A stretch of 64,000 nucleotides of DNA from Neisseriaceae bacterium (lineage in GTDB: Bacteria; Pseudomonadota; Gammaproteobacteria; Burkholderiales; Neisseriaceae): contig JAGBKK010000024.1 of assembly GCA_017934045.1 (NCBI GenBank), positions 62,001 through 126,000 on the forward strand. The letters are read 5' to 3'. The notes beneath the pieces were generated by a model. The model saw only the letters and a list, made by a program, of their open reading frames with translations. It did not search any database and was not told the origin of the DNA. Made by a program: the position numbers and the translations under genes. Each line of letters starts with the position of its first letter. Positions within the stretch are counted from its first letter, which is position 1. Below, in pieces: positions 23,662-59,164 of this stretch.

Positions 23662-24204
23662 CTATCTAAAATCTTTCACACTCATTTGCGTATTGTATCC
23701 GCCCACCATTAAATCGTTTTCATAGCGGTTAATGCCTGTGTATTCCCCATTGCCCTGCACAATGTTTTGACTAATCACATAACGAATGCTGTCAAAAAAT
23801 TGATTGTTGTGCGTGTATTTATCCGCCGTCCAAAAATGACGGCATTTATCTTCATAATAAAAACGAAAAACATTGAGTAAATTACGCCGACAATGCAAAA
23901 CATTGTCCGCTAACAACTCAATGCCGTATAACGATGACACAGAGAAAAACGCCTGAATTTCAAATGCAGGCTGATTGCGATTGCGGCGATAATAAAATTG
24001 TCGATAAATTTCCTGCAAACGGCGTTCTAAAATGGCACAGAGAAAATTACCATCGCCACAAGCAGGTTCTAAAAATCGTGCTTGATGATTTTTGACTTTG
24101 GCATCAACTAAATCCAACATATCCGCCACAATAAAAGGCGGCGTAAAAACTTCACCATGCTCTTGCACACGATAACGAGATTTAATCAGTGCGTTAGAAG
24201 CAGT
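23662..24204 (-). CDS. Short N-6 DNA methylase-like protein, probably a remnant
   Basis: 180 aa from ATG 24204 (MTASNALIKSRYRVQ). The N-terminal part has the typical EHGEVFTPPFIVADMLDL and motif I FLEPACGDGNFLCAIL (SAM binding), then YGIELLADNVLHCRRNL. No catalytic NPPY/DPPY motif is present before the stop, so it cannot methylate DNA alone unless a partner supplies it. Either a truncated remnant of a restriction-modification gene or a short uncharacterised family of similar length. A 16-bp-stem palindrome and a heptanucleotide repeat tract lie upstream. Confidence 0.65.
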   Translation of the reverse strand, partial: TASNALIKSRYRVQEHGEVFTPPFIVADMLDLVDAKVKNHQARFLEPACGDGNFLCAILERRLQEIYRQFYYRRNRNQPAFEIQAFFSVSSLYGIELLADNVLHCRRNLLNVFRFYYEDKCRHFWTADKYTHNNQFFDSIRYVISQNIVQGNGEYTGINRYENDLMVGGYNTQMSVKDFR

Positions 24205-24231
24205 CATCACACACACTCCAAACGCACAAAG

Positions 24232-24264
24232 CACCAAGCATTCAGGCTGCCTGAATGCTTGGTG
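24232..24264 (+). terminator. Uptake palindrome extended to a 16-bp perfect stem
   Basis: CACCAAGCATTCAGGC (24232-24247), centre T, then its exact complement to 24264, followed by TTTTTA on the plus strand. This is the longest stem around any uptake sequence here. It faces away from the methylase-like gene but sits 28 nt upstream of its ATG, so it would also be in that gene's leader. Confidence 0.65.
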
Positions 24265-24333: not shown

Positions 24334-24386
24334 ATTGTCGATTGTCGATTGTCGATTGTCGATTGTCGATTGTCGATTGTCGATTG
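24334..24386. repeat. Heptanucleotide tandem repeat (ATTGTCG)x7
   Basis: Seven perfect copies of ATTGTCG (24334-24382) plus a partial ATTG. The unit length is not a multiple of three, the type used for phase variation. It lies about 130 nt upstream of the methylase-like gene on the minus strand. The minus-strand frame through it is open from ATG 24395 but ends before or at the methylase start region, and the methylase frame has a TAA between, so translational switching is not possible as the sequence stands. Confidence 0.9.
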
Positions 24387-32023: not shown

Positions 32024-34237
32024 TTAAACCCGTCTGACTTCCGACACGCCCTGAATGTCTGCCAATGATGACAAGACGCGTGGCAGTTCTTCGCCTTGTT
32101 TGACTTCGGCGGTGAAACGCATGGTGGCGGTGTGGTCGCGTGTGAGTGTATTCACGCCGATGACATTGATTTTGTTTTTGGCAAATGCGTCTGACACATC
32201 GCGTAACAAGCCGCCTCTGTCGTGGGCGATGATTTCAATATCCACAGGGAAAACATTTTGCAAGCCGTGTAATGACCATTGTGCGTTCATTGTTTTTTCA
32301 GGACTGCGTTCGGCAAGGTGAGCAAATGCAGAGCAGTTTTTGCGGTGTATCGACACCCCACGCCCTGCCGTTACAAAGCCCACAATCTCATCAGGCGGTG
32401 CAGGTTTGCAACATTTGGCAAGCACCGTTAGCAAACCGCTTTCGCCGTTAAGCAACACACCGTTTTTGTCGTTCTTTTTAGCTTTACTGATTTTTAAGAC
32501 TTCGGCAGGTTTTTTGTTATCTTGTTGTTCTTTTTCGATAAATTCGTTTAATGCGCGTTCGACTGCGGTCATCGATATATCGCCTTGACCCAAGGCAACC
32601 TGAAAATCTTCCGCTTTGCTGTATCCACAATATTCGATGAGTTTTTGCATATTCGGTTTATGGGGCGTGCGATTGAGCAGTTTTTCCAACAGATTTTTAC
32701 CATTTTCACGAACCGAATCAATAGTTTGCGAACGAATATAGGCTTTAATTTTGCTAATCGCTTTACCGCTTTTCACCCAGCCGTTGTGCAACCAGTCAGG
32801 CGATGGATTGCCTGTTTTTGCGGCGATAATTTCCACCCTTTGTCCGTTTTCTAATGGTGTGGAGAGTGGCACCATCTGCCCATTGACTTTCGCACCACGA
32901 CAGCGATTGCCCAAATCGGAATGTAAGCCGTAGGCAAAATCAATCGGCGTAGAACCCTCGGGCAGCGACAAAACGCGTCCTTGTGGGGTTAAAACATAAA
33001 TCGTGTCGCTAAATAATTCGGTTTGAAAAGCGGCTGCCAAGTTGGCTTTGTCGCTACTTGCCATATTTTCACGCCAGTCAAGCAGTTGGCGTAACCACGC
33101 AATTTTTTGTTCATACACCGAATCGCCCTGTCCGCCCTCTTTATACCGCCAGTGTGCTGCCACGCCAAATTCGGCGTATTCGTGCATTTCAAATGTGCGA
33201 ATTTGAATTTCCACGCCTTTATTTTCAGGTCCCACCACCACCGTGTGCAAACTGCGATAATCATTCGCTTTGGGGTGCGAAATATAATCGTCAAACTCGC
33301 CTGAAATCGGCTGCCACAGGCTATGCACAATCCCCAGCGTGGTGTAACAATCGGCTACTGTTTCCACCAACACACGCACCGCACGAATGTCATACAGCCC
33401 TGAAAACGGCAGGTGTTTTTTCTGCATTTTGCGATAGATTGAATAAATGTGCTTGGGGCGACCTGCCACTTCGCATTTCAAACCTAAATTATCCAATTCG
33501 GCTTTCAGGCTGCCTGAAAAGGCGGCAATATACGCCAAGCGTTCATCACGATTGCCGTCCAAGGCTTCGGCAATTTCACGATATTCATCAGGGTGTTGAT
33601 AGCGAAAGCCCAAATCTTCCAATTGCCATTTCAACTGCCACACACCCAAGCGGTTTGCGAGTGGTGCGAAAATATCCATCGTTTCCTTGGCAATCGCTCT
33701 TTTTAACGGACTGTCAGGCACTCTACCCAAAAACTGCATCGTGCGTGTGCGTTGTGCCAATTTAATCAGCACCACACGAATGTCCGACACCATCGCCAAC
33801 AACATTTTCCGCATGGTTTCCGCTTGGCGATTGCGTTCATCAGGTGTTGCCAGCGAATCCACCTTGGCAAATTCGGTGAGTTTAGACACTTGATCTATGC
33901 CTTCAACCAACTTAACAACTTGTTTTCCAGCGATTTTTTCTAATTGAATTTTCCATTCAGGCACAAACGCAGGAAACACAGAAGCAAGTGTCGCAATCAC
34001 TGCGTCAGGCAATAAATCCAACTCTTCCACCATTTCGGCGGTGCGTAACAAATGGCGAAACAACGGCTCGCCCACAGGCGTTTGGTGTTCATCATTAAGC
34101 GTATTTTTCAGCAAAGTCAAAACGCTGTAAAAAATTTTCTTATCTTTTTCAGGCAGCCTTTTGGCATACAAAACCACCCATTCTTCGGGGGTGTCGTCAG
34201 GTGTCCAGTCAAAATGTTGGCGTAGTTCTTCACTCAT
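32024..34237 (-). CDS. relA: (p)ppGpp synthetase RelA
   Basis: 737 aa from ATG 34237. Ribosome-dependent synthetase of the stringent response. The hydrolase HD domain is degenerate: the position of the HD pair reads LASVFPAFVPEW, so hydrolase activity is probably absent. Synthetase domain: GLYDIRAVRVLVETVADCYTTLG, DYISHPKANDYRSLHTVV and EIQIRTFEMHEYAEFGVAAHW. TGS domain (VLTPQGRVLSLPEGSTPIDFAY) and C-terminal ACT (FPVDIEIIAHDRGGLLRDV). An in-frame uptake sequence gives FSGSLK near residue 250. Its start overlaps the end of ccoS. A hydrolase-competent paralogue is at 45361-47523. Confidence 0.95.
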   Translation of the reverse strand: MSEELRQHFDWTPDDTPEEWVVLYAKRLPEKDKKIFYSVLTLLKNTLNDEHQTPVGEPLFRHLLRTAEMVEELDLLPDAVIATLASVFPAFVPEWKIQLEKIAGKQVVKLVEGIDQVSKLTEFAKVDSLATPDERNRQAETMRKMLLAMVSDIRVVLIKLAQRTRTMQFLGRVPDSPLKRAIAKETMDIFAPLANRLGVWQLKWQLEDLGFRYQHPDEYREIAEALDGNRDERLAYIAAFSGSLKAELDNLGLKCEVAGRPKHIYSIYRKMQKKHLPFSGLYDIRAVRVLVETVADCYTTLGIVHSLWQPISGEFDDYISHPKANDYRSLHTVVVGPENKGVEIQIRTFEMHEYAEFGVAAHWRYKEGGQGDSVYEQKIAWLRQLLDWRENMASSDKANLAAAFQTELFSDTIYVLTPQGRVLSLPEGSTPIDFAYGLHSDLGNRCRGAKVNGQMVPLSTPLENGQRVEIIAAKTGNPSPDWLHNGWVKSGKAISKIKAYIRSQTIDSVRENGKNLLEKLLNRTPHKPNMQKLIEYCGYSKAEDFQVALGQGDISMTAVERALNEFIEKEQQDNKKPAEVLKISKAKKNDKNGVLLNGESGLLTVLAKCCKPAPPDEIVGFVTAGRGVSIHRKNCSAFAHLAERSPEKTMNAQWSLHGLQNVFPVDIEIIAHDRGGLLRDVSDAFAKNKINVIGVNTLTRDHTATMRFTAEVKQGEELPRVLSSLADIQGVSEVRRV

Positions 34238-34415
34238 TATTTTTATCACTCCGTTGCGAAATCAAATGTTCGGTATCGTCATCGTCCATAATAATGCGAT
34301 GCCCAGGACCTTCCAAATCGTCAAACTGCCCACTTTTAGACGACCACCACAGTGCAATGCCAATCAACAACACCAACACAATGCTAATCGGAATTAAAAT
34401 ATAAATGCTTTCCAT
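34230..34415 (-). CDS. ccoS: cbb3-type cytochrome oxidase assembly protein CcoS
   Basis: 61 aa. Single membrane helix (IYILIPISIVLVLLIGIALWW) followed by the CcoS signature KSGQFDDLEGPGHRIIMDDD. Required for cofactor insertion into cbb3 oxidase. No ccoNOP or ccoI in the window, so it is separated from the structural genes. It overlaps relA by 8 nt and starts at the base after the stop of the 100-codon gene, so the three are one operon. Confidence 0.92.
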   Translation of the reverse strand: MESIYILIPISIVLVLLIGIALWWSSKSGQFDDLEGPGHRIIMDDDDTEHLISQRSDKNNE

Positions 34416-34718
34416 TTACAATGCTCCTGTTAAGTCGTTCAAAATAAAAGAATATTTTTGATAAGACAAAATGCCGTTGAATAAAGTTAAAGCAACTTCA
34501 TCATCAACAATCAGCACTTTTTCGCCTTTAACCTGCCACAAAAACGAACGATTTTCCAAACTTTGCAAAGCCACAAATTCAGGCAAATTTTGACTGTTTT
34601 CGTCCGTGGTTTGAGCTTTAATCATCACCTGACCGTGCAGATTGTCGTCCTGCGTCATCGCCAAAAAACCCAAATGAACACCGCTGATAGTATTGATAGC
34701 AAATGATTGAACACTCAT
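34416..34718 (-). CDS. Hypothetical protein upstream of ccoS
   Basis: 100 aa, mostly predicted beta structure (VHLGFLAMTQDDNLHGQVMIKAQ; FLWQVKGEKVLIVDDEVALTLF). Not recognised. No signal peptide or helix. The ATG follows a degenerate uptake sequence (AAGCAGCCTGAA) by two bases, and the stop directly abuts the ccoS ATG, so translation is probably coupled. Its upstream region is one copy of the 82-bp direct repeat. Confidence 0.7.
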   Translation of the reverse strand: MSVQSFAINTISGVHLGFLAMTQDDNLHGQVMIKAQTTDENSQNLPEFVALQSLENRSFLWQVKGEKVLIVDDEVALTLFNGILSYQKYSFILNDLTGAL

Positions 34719-34800
34719 TTTTCAGGCTGCTTGAAAAGTAAAATTAAGCGTTATTTTACTATGAGAAGTGTCAAAATTAAATTTTTTAGGCTGCCTGAAA
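34719..34800. repeat. 82-bp direct repeat, left copy
   Basis: Matches 36209-36290 with two mismatches (34731 and 34736). Contains uptake-type motifs at both ends and AAGCGTTATTTTACTATGAG in the middle. The SIR2-like stop codon lies inside this copy. Confidence 0.95.
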
Positions 34801-36111
34801 CAATTCTGCAATATCAATTTCATCTGCTTTGGCAGAAATTAATCTTAAATTTCTACATGTAAGTGCAGGTTTGTCTTGTACCGTAATAGTGCAAAATTGA
34901 TCGATGGGAACTTGAAACACTTTGTTCATGCGTTCTTTGAAGTCATCTCGTCCAGCATTGGGAACTACAATATCAATTCTACGATTTGATGTATGCTGAC
35001 GCAAAATATCATTAAAATGCTCGTCTGCACTATTAAATGAATATCCGACAACCACAATATGTTCGGCTTCTTGAACCCATTTAGAAGCATTTGCCCAAAG
35101 GTCAATATATTTATTTGAAAGAACTGGTTTTATTCTTAATGGGGGAACTAATGCAGGAATAACATGACGGTGTCTTTTAATATCATCATCACTAACATTG
35201 ATATTTGGCTGAACAATATTAGATATAACCCATTGTGGGGAAGATTCTAATATATTTTCAATAGACATTAAGTTTCGTGTATCCATTCGCACATATTCGG
35301 CTAATCCGCCATGAAAATAAATCACATTGTCATTTCTCAACTGTTTTTGAAGAAATGAAGTGTAATTAAGCGTTATGGCACGGATATTATTGGGAAGATT
35401 ACTATAAAACGGCAAGTTACCGTCAGGATAAGCATTAAACACTTGTTTTTGTTTTTCAACCAAAAACGCCCATAATGCCCAAGATATGTACAGATAGTTT
35501 TTAATATCTGCAAGTTTGTTGCTATAAAAACCGAAAAACTTTTCTACTAACAAGGTCTCTATATTGAGTAATTCTGCTCCCAAAGCATTGGCAACAGCAT
35601 GATATTCACCAGTAAGCCCCATTTTTAATGTGCGTTTGAGTACTGCTTTGAATGTATCAGAAAGTGATAATTTATGAATATCCAAAATAGAATCGCTATC
35701 TAAAAAATTATCAGCATCTCGTGGAAAAATTTCTCTAATCAACTGCTCTGTTTCGTCATCTAATTGACTTTCTTCCGCAATAGTAGCCAACTTATTAAAC
35801 AGTAAAATAATCAATCTACCGTGTTTTTTTACAATATCATCATCTGAAAGATTGGTAATAGCATTTTGTACTTGTCTAACCATTTCCCTTTGTTCGTGTG
35901 GTTCTCGTATGGCAATTTTATCAACGGCACTTGCAATCATTTTATTGAAATCAAACCGAAGACCTGGAAGTATATCGCGTAACGCTGTATTAACTTCTCT
36001 GCCGTCATTTTCCAAATAACGAGCAAGGTCTGCCAACAATGTATTAGCCAAAGGAAAATCAATGCCAGTGGTTCTATCAACACCTGCACCTGTAATCAAT
36101 AAATTGGTCAT
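34786..36111 (-). CDS. SIR2/AbiH-like protein, putative stand-alone defence NADase
   Basis: 441 aa from ATG 36111, which has AGGAG 7 nt upstream. The N terminus LLITGAGVDRTTGIDFPLA resembles the NAD-binding start of SIR2-like and AbiH proteins. The middle has AITLNYTSFLQ and IYFHGG, matching the Asn and His catalytic positions, and the C-terminal part HIVVVGYSFNSADEHFNDIL is typical of SIR2-like defence proteins. The central 230 residues are helical and unrecognised. No HerA, Argonaute or TIR partner is adjacent. The C terminus FQAA-stop is made by an uptake sequence. The gene sits between two 82-bp direct repeats, interrupting an otherwise divergent pair of core genes. Confidence 0.75.
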   Translation of the reverse strand: MTNLLITGAGVDRTTGIDFPLANTLLADLARYLENDGREVNTALRDILPGLRFDFNKMIASAVDKIAIREPHEQREMVRQVQNAITNLSDDDIVKKHGRLIILLFNKLATIAEESQLDDETEQLIREIFPRDADNFLDSDSILDIHKLSLSDTFKAVLKRTLKMGLTGEYHAVANALGAELLNIETLLVEKFFGFYSNKLADIKNYLYISWALWAFLVEKQKQVFNAYPDGNLPFYSNLPNNIRAITLNYTSFLQKQLRNDNVIYFHGGLAEYVRMDTRNLMSIENILESSPQWVISNIVQPNINVSDDDIKRHRHVIPALVPPLRIKPVLSNKYIDLWANASKWVQEAEHIVVVGYSFNSADEHFNDILRQHTSNRRIDIVVPNAGRDDFKERMNKVFQVPIDQFCTITVQDKPALTCRNLRLISAKADEIDIAELFQAA

Positions 36112-36208
36112 TTTTACACTCCTTTTTAGTGTATTTAATTGATAATTTTGATTATGTGGGGGCATTATATTTTTTTTCAATAGTTTTGATTGATAAAAAA
36201 CTAAATAG

Positions 36209-36290
36209 TTTTCAGGCTGCCTGAACAGTAAAATTAAGCGTTATTTTACTATGAGAAGTGTCAAAATTAAATTTTTTAGGCTGCCTGAAA
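36209..36290. repeat. 82-bp direct repeat, right copy
   Basis: Second copy, starting with an intact uptake palindrome (36211-36225) and ending with AGGCTGCCTGAAA. It lies upstream of both the SIR2-like gene (minus) and folD (plus), so it may carry promoter elements for either. Confidence 0.95.
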
Positions 36291-36357: not shown

Positions 36358-37212
36358 ATGACCGCACAAATTATTGACGGCAAAGCCGTGTCGCAAAAAT
36401 GTTTAGACAAAATTGCTGCCGAAGTAGCTCAACGCACCGCTGAAAACAAGCGTCCGCCGTGTCTTGCGGTGATTTTAGTGGGCGATAATCCAGCCAGCCA
36501 TGTGTATGTTCGCAATAAGAAAAATGCGTGCGAAAAAGTGGGCTTTCGTTCTTTGTCGTATGAAAAATCGGCTGATTTTAGTGAAGCCGAATTGTTGGCG
36601 TTGATTGACGAACTGAATAACGATGACACTGTTGATGGCATTTTGGTGCAACTGCCTGTGCCGCCGCATATCGACAGCCAAAAGATCATTGAACGAATCC
36701 GCCCTGATAAGGATGTTGATGGTTTTCACCCTTACAACATTGGGCGTTTGGCTGTGAAAATGCCCCTAATGCGTCCTTGCACGCCCAAAGGGGTGATGAC
36801 TATGCTGGCTGAATATGGTATTGATGTTAAAGGAAAAAATGTAACGATTGTGGGGCAGTCAAATATTGTCGGCAGACCGCAAGCGTTGGAAATGCTGATG
36901 AATCGAGCCACCATTACCGTGTGCCACACCGCAACGAAAGACTTGCCTGCGGAAGTGGGTAGAGCGGATATTGTGGTGGCAGCGGTGGGTCGTCCAAATT
37001 GCATTAAAGGCGAATGGATTAAAGACGGTGCGGTGGTGATTGATGTGGGCATTAACCGCTTGGACAACGGCAAATTGTGCGGCGATGTGGAATTTGCAAC
37101 CGCGTCTGAAAAGGCTTCATTTATCACGCCCGTGCCAGGCGGTGTTGGTCCAATGACGATTGCGTCTTTATTGGAAAATACTTTGGAAGCGGCAAAGTTG
37201 CACGATCAATAA
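36358..37212 (+). CDS. folD: Methylenetetrahydrofolate dehydrogenase / cyclohydrolase
   Basis: 284 aa bifunctional enzyme linking 5,10-methylene-THF to 10-formyl-THF. [19 protein letters not shown] carries the catalytic Lys, [11 protein letters not shown] and [11 protein letters not shown] follow, and the Rossmann motif is [10 protein letters not shown]. The C-terminal signature is [21 protein letters not shown] lies upstream of the ATG. Confidence 0.98.
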
Positions 37213-37245: not shown

Positions 37246-37575
37246 ATGATTACACTCTACGGTATTCCTAATTGCAACAGCGTTAAAAAAGCACGCCGTC
37301 TTTTGGAAGAAACAAATGTCGAATATTCATTTGTGGATTTCAAAAAAACACCGCCCACACAAGAACAAATTTCATTATGGATTAAGGTGTTAGGTTGTGA
37401 TATATTGATCAACAAAAAAGGCACAAAATGGCGTTCATTATCTGATGAAGAAAAACAAATTGATCCCATTTTGCTTATTGCACAATATCCCACACTCATC
37501 AAACGCCCACTGATTGAATGGGCTGACGGCACAATCACCGTAGGATTAGATGAAAAACACTTTCAGGCAGCCTGA
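37246..37575 (+). CDS. ArsC/Spx-family protein (YffB-like)
   Basis: 109 aa thioredoxin-fold protein of the ArsC/Spx superfamily. MITLYGIPNCNSVKKARRLL has a single Cys (PNCNSV) as in YffB rather than an arsenate-reductase CX5R site; the C-terminal part RPLIEWADGTITVGLDE matches the family. Its physiological role is unclear. Start at 37246, after the uptake palindrome at 37218-37232. The last residues FQAA and stop come from a second uptake palindrome (37562-37576). Confidence 0.85.
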   Translation: MITLYGIPNCNSVKKARRLLEETNVEYSFVDFKKTPPTQEQISLWIKVLGCDILINKKGTKWRSLSDEEKQIDPILLIAQYPTLIKRPLIEWADGTITVGLDEKHFQAA

Positions 37576-56584: not shown

Positions 56585-56650
56585 TAGTTTTATGGAAGAA
56601 AAGTTCTCTGTAAAACGCAAACTTTTTTAACTTTTCATAAGGACACAATG

Positions 56651-59164
56651 ATGAATAAAACATTTCGAGTGATTTTTAATCACGCCACGCAACAATGGGT
56701 TGCGGTTTCTGAACTGGCTCGTGTTAATGGCAAACACACACAAAGCAATCAAAACAGCGTTTCAGGCAGCCTGAAAAAGGCATTTGCTCCGTTGTGCTTG
56801 GCTTTAATGGGCATTTTTTTTGCACCTATGGTTTTTGCAGATGTAGTAGGATGTGCACAGGATACTGGATTAGGTTATTTTTCATGTGGGGTTAACATTC
56901 TATCTACACCAGGTAAAAACTCTCTTACCTTTGGTGGGCAGAACGAAGCAAAAGGGGAGAGTTCTTCTGCCTTTGGTATGGCGAACACGGCAACAGGTCG
57001 ATACTCTGCGGCGTTTGGGTATGACAATCGAGCAGAATCTGATAATTCTTCTGCATTTGGTGTGGATAATCGTACAACTGCTATGTTATCTTCTGCATTT
57101 GGGGTTGGTAACAGGGCAAAAGGTGAATATTCTTCCGCCTTTGGTGCGAAAAGCCAAGCCATTGTGGATTATGGCACGGCAATCGGCTATAAATCTTACG
57201 CTGACCGTGCCGCTTGGGATAGTAGCAGCAATAATTATTCTGCTGCATTTGCACCGTCCGATATGAGTGGTTTTGACGCAAAACAAAAAGCGGCTTGGCA
57301 AGCGACTTCGGCGGCTTTGGCTGTGGGCGACCCAAATGGTACTGGCAATAGTAACAAACCAATCACTCGCCAAATTACAGGCGTGGCGGCTGGCAGTGAA
57401 GATACAGACGCTGTGAATGTGGCACAGTTAAAAGAAGTGGCAGGTATGGTGAGTGGCGGCAGTTCGTTTAGTCCAATTAGCGTGTCGGGTAATACAGGCA
57501 ATTTCAGCGTAGGCAGTGCAGGCAAGCTGAACATTCAAGGCGATGGCACCAATATCACCACAACAGCCAGTGGCGACACGGTTACGATTGGTTTGAGCAG
57601 TGCTTTGAAAACTCAAATTAACACTGCCATCGCAACTGTGGGTACATTAAATACCACTGTTACAAACTTGGGTACTACGGTTGCTGGTTTGGAGACTGAA
57701 ATTAAGGCAGTGGAAACTAATGTAGTCGCATACGACGGTCGAATCACTGCTAATAAAGACAAGATTACGCAACTGGAAAACAACCACAATGCTTTGTCTG
57801 GCGAAGTTACTAACATAAGCAATGCCATGGCGAATAAAGCCGATCAATCGTGGGTTACTGATCAAATCAATAATGCGGCATTAGGCGGCACTGGCGTGGA
57901 TTTAAGCGAATACGCCAAAACCGCAGACGCGAACGCTTACGCTGATACAGCGGCTAATACGGCTGAAAACAACGCCAAAGGTTATACCGATAGCGAAGTG
58001 GCAAAAGCCAAAACGGCGGCAAATACTTATGCCGACACTGCGGCAAACAAAGCCAAAACGGACGCACAAACTTATGCGGATAATGCTGTGAAAGATAAAG
58101 CCACGCAATCGTGGGTTAAAGATGAAATCAATAAAGCGGCATTAAGCGGCACTGGCATGGATTTAAGCGAATACGCCAAAACCGCAGACGCTAACGCTTA
58201 CGCTGATACAGCGGCTAATACGGCTGAAAATAACGCCAAAGGTTATACCGATAGCGAAGTGGCAAAAGCCAAATCGTATGCTGATAATGCGGCTAATACA
58301 GCGGAAACAAACGCCAAAGGTTATACCGATAGTAAATTGGGCGATTACAGCACCACAACGGATATGAATAAGGCGATTGATACCGCAAAAGCAGACGCAA
58401 ACAAATACGCCGACACTGCGGCAAACAAAGCCAAAACAGACGCTAATGCTTATACAGACGGCAAGTTGGCAGATAATGCTACGCAAACATGGGTGAATAA
58501 TCAAAAATTCGCCCAACAACAAGCGGTTACTGACTTAAACAGCAGAGTGGATAAGTTGGTGGTAACAGGCGGCGGTTATGAACATATTACCGTTGCAGGC
58601 GAAAATGGTTCGTTTAATGTGGCAAACAAAGAAACCGCAAAATTTGTGGGCGATGGCAAAAACATTACCACAGACGCATCAGGCGGCGAAGTGAAAATTA
58701 GCCTTGCTGATGATATTGCGGTTAATAGCGTGAATGCTGGCGGCACTGTGGTTAATCAAAACGGCGTTGCCCTGCCGTCTGGCGTGGCATTGACAAACGG
58801 CGGCTTAAATAACGGCGGTCAGGTGATTAGCAATGTCGCACCAGGCGTTCGCCCAACAGACGCTGTGAATGTGAGCCAGTTAAATAATGCTATGGGCGGC
58901 GTGTATGGACGCATTGACAGTATGGAAAAACACGCCAACGCAGGTATTGCACAAGCCATGGCAACAGGTGCGATGATGACTTCAACACAAGCAGGACAAG
59001 GCTTTTTATCCTTATCAGGCAGCACTTACCGTGGCGAACAAGGCTATGCAATGGGCTATTCGCATATGTCCGATAGCGGCAAATGGGGCGTGAAATTTAT
59101 CGGCTCGGGCAATTCTCGCGGTAAATTCGGCGGTGCCGCTTCCGTAGGATTTAGATTGTATTGA
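56651..59164 (+). CDS. YadA-like trimeric autotransporter adhesin
   Basis: 837 aa from ATG 56651 (AAGG 7 nt upstream). The extended signal peptide starts MNKTFRVIFNHATQQWVAVS, then a hydrophobic core to FADV. YadA head repeats (about residues 75-190) with SSAFG / AFGxxNxA units, neck ITGVAAGSEDTDAVNVAQL near 240, alanine-rich coiled-coil stalk (about 320-620) with an 87-residue internal repeat starting WVTDQINNAAL and WVKDEINKAAL, second neck PGVRPTDAVNVSQLNN, C-terminal membrane anchor ending GGAASVGFRLY. Surface trimer, likely adhesion. Uptake sequence codes SGSLKK in the signal region. Confidence 0.93.
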   Translation: MNKTFRVIFNHATQQWVAVSELARVNGKHTQSNQNSVSGSLKKAFAPLCLALMGIFFAPMVFADVVGCAQDTGLGYFSCGVNILSTPGKNSLTFGGQNEAKGESSSAFGMANTATGRYSAAFGYDNRAESDNSSAFGVDNRTTAMLSSAFGVGNRAKGEYSSAFGAKSQAIVDYGTAIGYKSYADRAAWDSSSNNYSAAFAPSDMSGFDAKQKAAWQATSAALAVGDPNGTGNSNKPITRQITGVAAGSEDTDAVNVAQLKEVAGMVSGGSSFSPISVSGNTGNFSVGSAGKLNIQGDGTNITTTASGDTVTIGLSSALKTQINTAIATVGTLNTTVTNLGTTVAGLETEIKAVETNVVAYDGRITANKDKITQLENNHNALSGEVTNISNAMANKADQSWVTDQINNAALGGTGVDLSEYAKTADANAYADTAANTAENNAKGYTDSEVAKAKTAANTYADTAANKAKTDAQTYADNAVKDKATQSWVKDEINKAALSGTGMDLSEYAKTADANAYADTAANTAENNAKGYTDSEVAKAKSYADNAANTAETNAKGYTDSKLGDYSTTTDMNKAIDTAKADANKYADTAANKAKTDANAYTDGKLADNATQTWVNNQKFAQQQAVTDLNSRVDKLVVTGGGYEHITVAGENGSFNVANKETAKFVGDGKNITTDASGGEVKISLADDIAVNSVNAGGTVVNQNGVALPSGVALTNGGLNNGGQVISNVAPGVRPTDAVNVSQLNNAMGGVYGRIDSMEKHANAGIAQAMATGAMMTSTQAGQGFLSLSGSTYRGEQGYAMGYSHMSDSGKWGVKFIGSGNSRGKFGGAASVGFRLY
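57851..58273 (+). repeat. 87-codon internal stalk repeat of the autotransporter
   Basis: Segments starting at 57851 and 58112 (offset 261 bp) are nearly identical over about 160 bp (TGGGTTACTGATCAAATCAA versus TGGGTTAAAGATGAAATCAA). Recombination between them could change stalk length. Confidence 0.8.

Follow-up and report, generated by a model that had tools for sequence, protein, structure and literature searches.

An AbiH-like gene in a recently transferred, DUS-bounded cassette upstream of the HLGFF-ccoS-relA operon of a Neisseriaceae bacterium

What is a single gene doing between two near-identical direct repeats at the edge of a conserved operon, and by what route did it arrive there? 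The question arises in a stretch of 64,000 nucleotides (the window) of a draft Neisseriaceae genome in 43 contigs (G000), in which two 82-bp repeats, hereafter R (34719-34800) and R' (36209-36290), both read on the minus strand, are identical at 80 of 82 positions in pairwise comparison and, as the original prediction had it, enclose one minus-strand gene and no other. To the left lies a minus-strand operon consisting of a gene for a 100-residue HLGFF protein (34416-34718; NF047841), which is its first gene, and then a ccoS-like gene and relA (32024-34415), which together form a conserved flank. To the right, folD (36358-37212) is read from the plus strand. These neighbours are as originally described, the names relA, ccoS and folD having been assigned from their sequences.

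The enclosed AbiH-like gene (34786-36111, minus strand) encodes 441 residues if translation begins at the ATG at 36111, upstream of which an AGGAG is found, or 464 residues if it begins at an upstream TTG. The TAA stop codon (34786-34788) and the last four codons lie within the left repeat; in other words, the repeat encodes the final residues of the protein, FQAA. The same arrangement is seen elsewhere, in that DUS, or uptake sequences, are read as coding sequence both here (34782-34800) and at 37560-37575, several open reading frames ending in FQAA and a stop, such that uptake sequences form the C-termini. The leader of the gene (36112-36208, minus strand) contains the AGGAG ribosome-binding site at 36119-36123 and a TATAAT-like box at 36164-36169. 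Neither an integrase nor a transposase gene lies between the repeats, where the AbiH-like gene is alone. An insertion sequence or transposon with a classical target-site duplication was also considered and rejected, there being no transposase and the duplication being one of 82 bp with DUS ends.

The repeat itself is composed of a segment of ~45 bp flanked by two inverted DUS-type palindromes (AGGCWGCCTGAA), with an internal AGTAAAAT...ATTTTACT hairpin (fold z of -3.4). No direct repeat in the window exceeds the 64-bp exact run common to R and R', the second longest (42 bp) lying within a repetitive surface-protein gene. R is not a dispersed repeat, since full-length, high-scoring copies of it in the 1.9-Mb genome are these two only; the remaining matches are low-scoring, nearly all partial and located mainly at its DUS ends. 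Two further repetitive features of the window may be recorded here. At 56648-59164 an 838-residue protein resembling a trimeric autotransporter adhesin has internal repeats of ~261 bp that are near identical in DNA, and at 24334-24386 there are 7.6 perfect tandem copies of the 7-bp unit ATTGTCG, ~100 bp upstream of a minus-strand 191-residue open reading frame (23662-24237) that resembles a piece of a DNA methyltransferase. From its sequence, the latter array is a candidate phase-variable switch.

The history of the gene becomes evident on comparison with related species, in which one genome per species was covered. The closest case is G005, a Neisseriaceae MAG from sheep omasum (JAFWRB010000016.1), where the same gene stands in the same orientation beside the HLGFF-ccoS-relA operon. 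DNA identity between the two genomes amounts to 98.5% in the gene and 97.9% in the leader, which is accordingly counted as part of the transferred cassette, but to 89% in R, 76% in the HLGFF gene and ~85% in relA. The stretch of high identity ends at, or no more than ~20 bp from, a DUS palindrome on both sides, namely the palindrome in R at 34782-34800, which forms the 3' border of the cassette, and that at 36209-36226, which forms its 5' border and its junction with R' and contains the last bases common with G005. Past the leader-side DUS nothing is common to the two genomes, folD following here and vapBC with pyrF in G005. Since identity in the gene so exceeds that in the flanks and switches at DUS on both sides, the gene is, by sequence comparison, a recently transferred, DUS-bounded single-gene cassette common to two related Neisseriaceae species. 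The original claims of an acquired one-gene cassette (98.5% identity against about 75-85% in the flanking genes; 35% GC in the gene against 42% in the window) and of borders at uptake sequences have therefore stood up well.

It should be borne in mind that DUS are frequent in this DNA. In the window the 12-mers AGGCAGCCTGAA and AGGCTGCCTGAA are found 58 and 64 times on the two strands; we assign them to the AG-kingDUS and simDUS dialects. Positions within 15 bp of a DUS make up 3% of the whole and 12% of the non-ORF positions, such that, with DUS this frequent between genes, some borders would be expected to fall at a DUS by chance. The AG-kingDUS and simDUS dialects are both named in the literature, where Simonsiella is also described as having two different DUS (PMC3630211). 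Neisserial recombination hotspots are associated with DUS, which also lie on either side of some elements of recent transfer (PMC2397512).

To which neighbour, then, does the repeat belong? A single orthologous R is found at the same place upstream of the operon in G005 (89% identity) and in G002 (81%), and in none of the four same-genus genomes whose folD surroundings were compared is folD preceded by an R. On this sequence evidence R belongs with the HLGFF operon, as its upstream region, and not with folD. R' is a duplicate of this lineage's R, fused to the cassette within its operon-side DUS, on the right of which the sequence reads as R and on the left as cassette leader; it is missing from G005, where the corresponding spot holds only the ~20-bp DUS. 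The two mismatches between the copies both lie at the HLGFF-side end of the left copy, or the cassette-side end of the right one. At both positions R' has the bases of G005 and G002, so it is the left copy that has been altered.

Because the genome is a draft in 43 contigs and the two junctions peculiar to it are placed at or inside R', a contig misjoined through the 82-bp repeat has to be considered. We regard such an artefact as highly improbable: two sites distinguish the copies, their flanks are not the same, ordinary reads are longer than the repeat, and the junction of gene, R and HLGFF is found again in G005, which was assembled independently.

A related species without the gene would be expected, if the cassette was inserted, to carry a single copy of the repeat, and G002 is such a species, with the gene absent and one R. 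What occupies the site instead is informative. In both G002 and G005 the site is enclosed by pyrF-vapBC and R-HLGFF-ccoS-relA, and the cargo between them is the AbiH-like gene in G005 and, in G002, a DarT1 toxin (PF14487, 2.6e-24) together with a NADAR-DarT1 antitoxin (PF22397, 2.4e-56). The DarT1-NADAR pair and vapBC of G002 thus share the position of the present gene upstream of R-HLGFF-ccoS-relA, although they are two-gene toxin-antitoxin systems whereas here there is one gene and no antitoxin candidate. A further species, G006, also has pyrF-vapBC, and its contigs stop short of the site. Its HLGFF gene (L086, 4719-4940) is ~97% like that of G002 downstream of the site and abruptly different in its 5' part, where the contig ends; this suggests a further recombination border at this site.

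A variable site of this kind recalls the minimal mobile element of Neisseria, reportedly described by Saunders and Snyder in 2002 and by Snyder et al. in 2007. By definition such an element is bounded by two conserved genes, and the whole-gene cassette lying between them varies from strain to strain, incorporation being via homologous recombination (PMC3082526). With the gene lacking in G002, its single R, and vapBC and the DarT1-NADAR pair at the same spot, the site resembles such an element as judged from the sequences. As in the neisserial case, whole-gene cassettes differ between genomes at one site (the AbiH-like gene in G000 and G005, DarT1-NADAR in G002), the locus has no integrase or transposase of its own, and incorporation would be by homologous recombination. 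Conserved genes on both sides are found between G002 and G005 but not here, where folD is the other neighbour; in contrast to the neisserial element, therefore, only the HLGFF-ccoS-relA flank is conserved across the species, the other being pyrF-vapBC (G002, G005) or folD (here). A second point of difference is that the borders of this cassette lie at DUS and that the upstream region of the flank has been duplicated in this genome. By sequence, then, the comparison of G002 with G005 appears to fit the definition fully, and the present genome fits it in part.

As to the protein, the original prediction gave it SIR2/AbiH features and the potential of an NADase. AbiH (PF14253) is an abortive-infection protein of Lactococcus, and its Pfam model matches here at 21.3 bits, under the curated cut-off of 30.9. 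Pfam SIR2 models, such as PF13289, gave no match, the search at E up to 1 returning only AbiH and a weak unrelated hit; SIR2_2 has no match in this genome, and PADLOC returned weak matches to Aga_SIR2, SIR2 and AbiH. Three motifs are seen, all encoded on the minus strand. The first, GAGVDRTTG (residues 8-16; 36064-36090), has G8, A9, G10, D12, R13, T14 and G16 invariant in four homologues. The second, TLNYT...YFH (residues 247-267; 35311-35373), also invariant in the four, contains the candidate active-site residues N249 and H267 at a spacing of the AbiH class. The third, GYSFNSAD (residues 356-363; 35023-35046), is a C-terminal Rossmann-type motif that falls within the PADLOC Aga_SIR2 matches. 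Overall, the four homologues keep a GAG(V/A)DRT start, TLNYT with N249, YFHGG with H267 and GYSFN.AD near the end.

This is the AbiH motif set (GAGVD, TLNYT, His at +18 and GYSFNSAD, set against AbiH proteins L204-L206). The true AbiH proteins compared have GNGFD, FNYT and a spacing of 20 from Asn to His-Gly, such that the likeness extends to the GxGxD start, the FNYT-like motif, the short spacing (18 here), a GHS/GYS..D near the C-terminus and the single-gene nature of the system. Differences from AbiH are the score under the cut-off, ~230 probably helical residues between the first and second motifs, and a length of 441 residues against open frames of ~310-340 codons. The SIR2 defence NADases, on the other hand, have an N-Y-D signature with the catalytic His well downstream, as in DSR2 (N133/H171) and ThsA (N112/H152) (PMC11263360) or SPARSA (N142/H186) (PMC10781750), and in the SIR2_2 proteins compared the Asn-His spacing is mostly 38-47. 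The present protein shares with ThsA, DSR2, SIR2-HerA and SPARSA a candidate Asn and His and a C-terminal Rossmann-type motif, but it has NYT in place of NYD and a spacing of 18 in place of 38-44, both invariant in the four homologues, and HerA, Thoeris and Argonaute partners are lacking from the locus. In view of the GxGxD, the NYT and the spacing of 18, the protein is AbiH-like by its sequence, and its motifs are not those of canonical SIR2-NADases. The superfamily assignment originally made is thus upheld by the motifs, while the NADase reading is weakened by them.

The ~230 residues between the first and second motifs are probably helical, and are mostly helix in an AlphaFold model that was built from two near-identical sequences and is too poor to rely on (pLDDT 35). 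Searches for PDB relatives, by sequence and by a four-member profile, gave chance matches only. Profile-profile comparison with AbiH and SIR2_2 proteins was weak, at a best probability of 41% against 0.1-0.2% for seven unrelated controls: with SIR2_2 there was one suggestive alignment, at the C-terminal motif (41%), the rest being noise, and with AbiH the NYT-HG stretch matched at 35%. Moreover, the mode of action of AbiH is listed as unknown (PMC12322248), so that an NADase activity of this protein can be put forward as a hypothesis only.

The gene family is rare. It was found in two of 61 near relatives, one of 369 class-level and two of 398 phylum-level genomes, each count including the present genome; among the other near relatives of the 61 searched it is absent apart from G005, and no relatives were found in viral contigs and phage records. 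Two distant homologues, 65-66% identical, were recovered. One is on a Methylococcus plasmid, close to an integrase gene and beside genes of type I restriction-modification; the other (G536, of the gammaproteobacterial class; contig C4, L092, 7508-8842) is beside a complete QatABCD system. A protein with an AbiEi-type antitoxin domain is encoded a few kb from this second homologue. The defence neighbours of both distant homologues bear out the contextual part of the original defence assignment, and, taken with the rare, scattered distribution and the toxin-antitoxin genes at the G002 site, make an anti-phage defence role likely from genomic context. Since the AbiH homology lies under the threshold, one may ask if the protein is instead AbiH-like with a housekeeping or regulatory role, carried between DUS by chance. 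Against such a role speak the gene's low GC, its patchy occurrence and recent transfer, and the defence systems next to both distant homologues; we hold it to be unlikely.

There remains the matter of folD. It was originally proposed that HLGFF-ccoS-relA facing folD, with one copy of the repeat, is the original intergenic region, and that related strains would show it as an empty site. A single R without the gene is indeed seen in G002. The facing folD is not: folD and the HLGFF-ccoS-relA operon are on separate contigs in G002, alignment of four same-genus genomes to the folD region is limited to folD itself, and a folD-R-HLGFF arrangement with one R was not found in the genomes compared. With folD adjoining R, among those compared, in this genome only, and R going with the HLGFF operon, the "original intergenic region" reading is not supported. 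This bears directly on the proposal that a SIR2-type NADase was inserted into an ancestral one-R folD/HLGFF intergenic region, from which it loops out via the repeats as a reversible switch. The near identity and direct orientation of R and R', the single R of the species without the gene and the weak SIR2 matches in PADLOC would all agree with such a switch; yet folD is beside R here alone, the motifs are of the AbiH type without NYD and the 38-44-residue spacing, the deletion form is not seen among the genomes compared, and loop-out alone is not reversible. We consider it quite unlikely.

An event of rearrangement, as opposed to insertion, deserves similar attention. This genome and G002 have kept almost nothing of a common gene order, though the two are of the same genus with ~75-93% DNA identity; the collinear blocks, at most 4.9 kb long and ~1.3 kb at the median, are spread over many contigs (C14, C29, C22, C6, C33, C11, C35, C39 and others). 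With gene order so broken, the arrival of folD could be a separate event: in G005 the gene has R-HLGFF next to it, and if this was the earlier state here too, folD and a copied R would have come later, by an event that DUS or R mediated; the lack of R' in the G005 order would be in keeping with this. Such a course needs more steps, however, as a second R must first reach folD, upstream of which nothing R-like occurs in the four same-genus relatives compared, and it seems to us rather improbable.

The explanation that we prefer, and think probable on the sequence evidence, is that the gene is a one-gene, AbiH-like anti-phage cassette of abortive-infection-like character, which lies in a variable toxin-antitoxin and defence site upstream of HLGFF-ccoS-relA and entered by transformation via DUS junctions, leaving R doubled. 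The cassette would pass from one species to another within the genus, which is presumably competent, in the form of DUS-ended DNA and without a mobility gene of its own. A donor fragment of the order DUS-gene-R-HLGFF would have been taken up in this lineage, one of its ends recombining via the long homology in the operon and the other joining at that end of the recipient R which is nearest the operon, where 15-20 bp of DUS match. The recipient R would be kept beyond the gene, giving one R per side, as in homology-facilitated illegitimate recombination; the product would be the same if both DUS of R had served for an ends-in insertion. The folD/HLGFF intergenic region could have existed in this lineage right before the insertion; as no folD-R-HLGFF genome with one R was found, this recipient state is one that we infer. 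Thereafter the left R would keep serving the operon, and the right R would be a second upstream region added to the leader of the gene. The protein would be a self-contained abortive-infection factor, its large, probably helical region sensing infection and its AbiH/SIR2-type pocket acting on a nucleotide, perhaps NAD+. Loop-out between the 82-bp repeats is mechanically plausible, and loss by this means would be reversed only through fresh DNA uptake. With one genome per species, mobility within species is not visible in the comparison.

A broader reading is that the DUS palindromes of the genus are joining points of general gene shuffling as well as uptake tags, such that defence genes, and even the core gene folD, move from DUS to DUS, the R-gene-R arrangement being a caught intermediate able to lose its cargo precisely. 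We view this as decidedly doubtful. When contig C17 of this genome (L129-L141) was compared with part of G002, 22 of 68 synteny-block edges lay within 15 bp of a DUS palindrome, to be set beside the 3% of all and 12% of non-ORF positions given above, a figure that is inflated because local alignments run on into conserved DUS. Of two control genus pairs, one, of another genus and at ~79% identity, was collinear over 69 of 80 kb, and the second over only 6.5 kb. Coincidence of block edges with DUS was not adopted as genome-wide proof of DUS-mediated shuffling, the number being inflated and one control pair being scrambled as well.

For the biology of the family, the locus would provide a dated, three-species example of a naturally transforming lineage trading single defence genes without integrases, in which the cargo varies at one site and the borders stay at uptake sequences. 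It also brings forward an uncharacterised AbiH-like family, small enough for direct test and informative given that the mechanism of AbiH itself is unknown. If DUS act as junctions as well as uptake tags, the defence repertoires of Neisseriaceae could turn over gene by gene.
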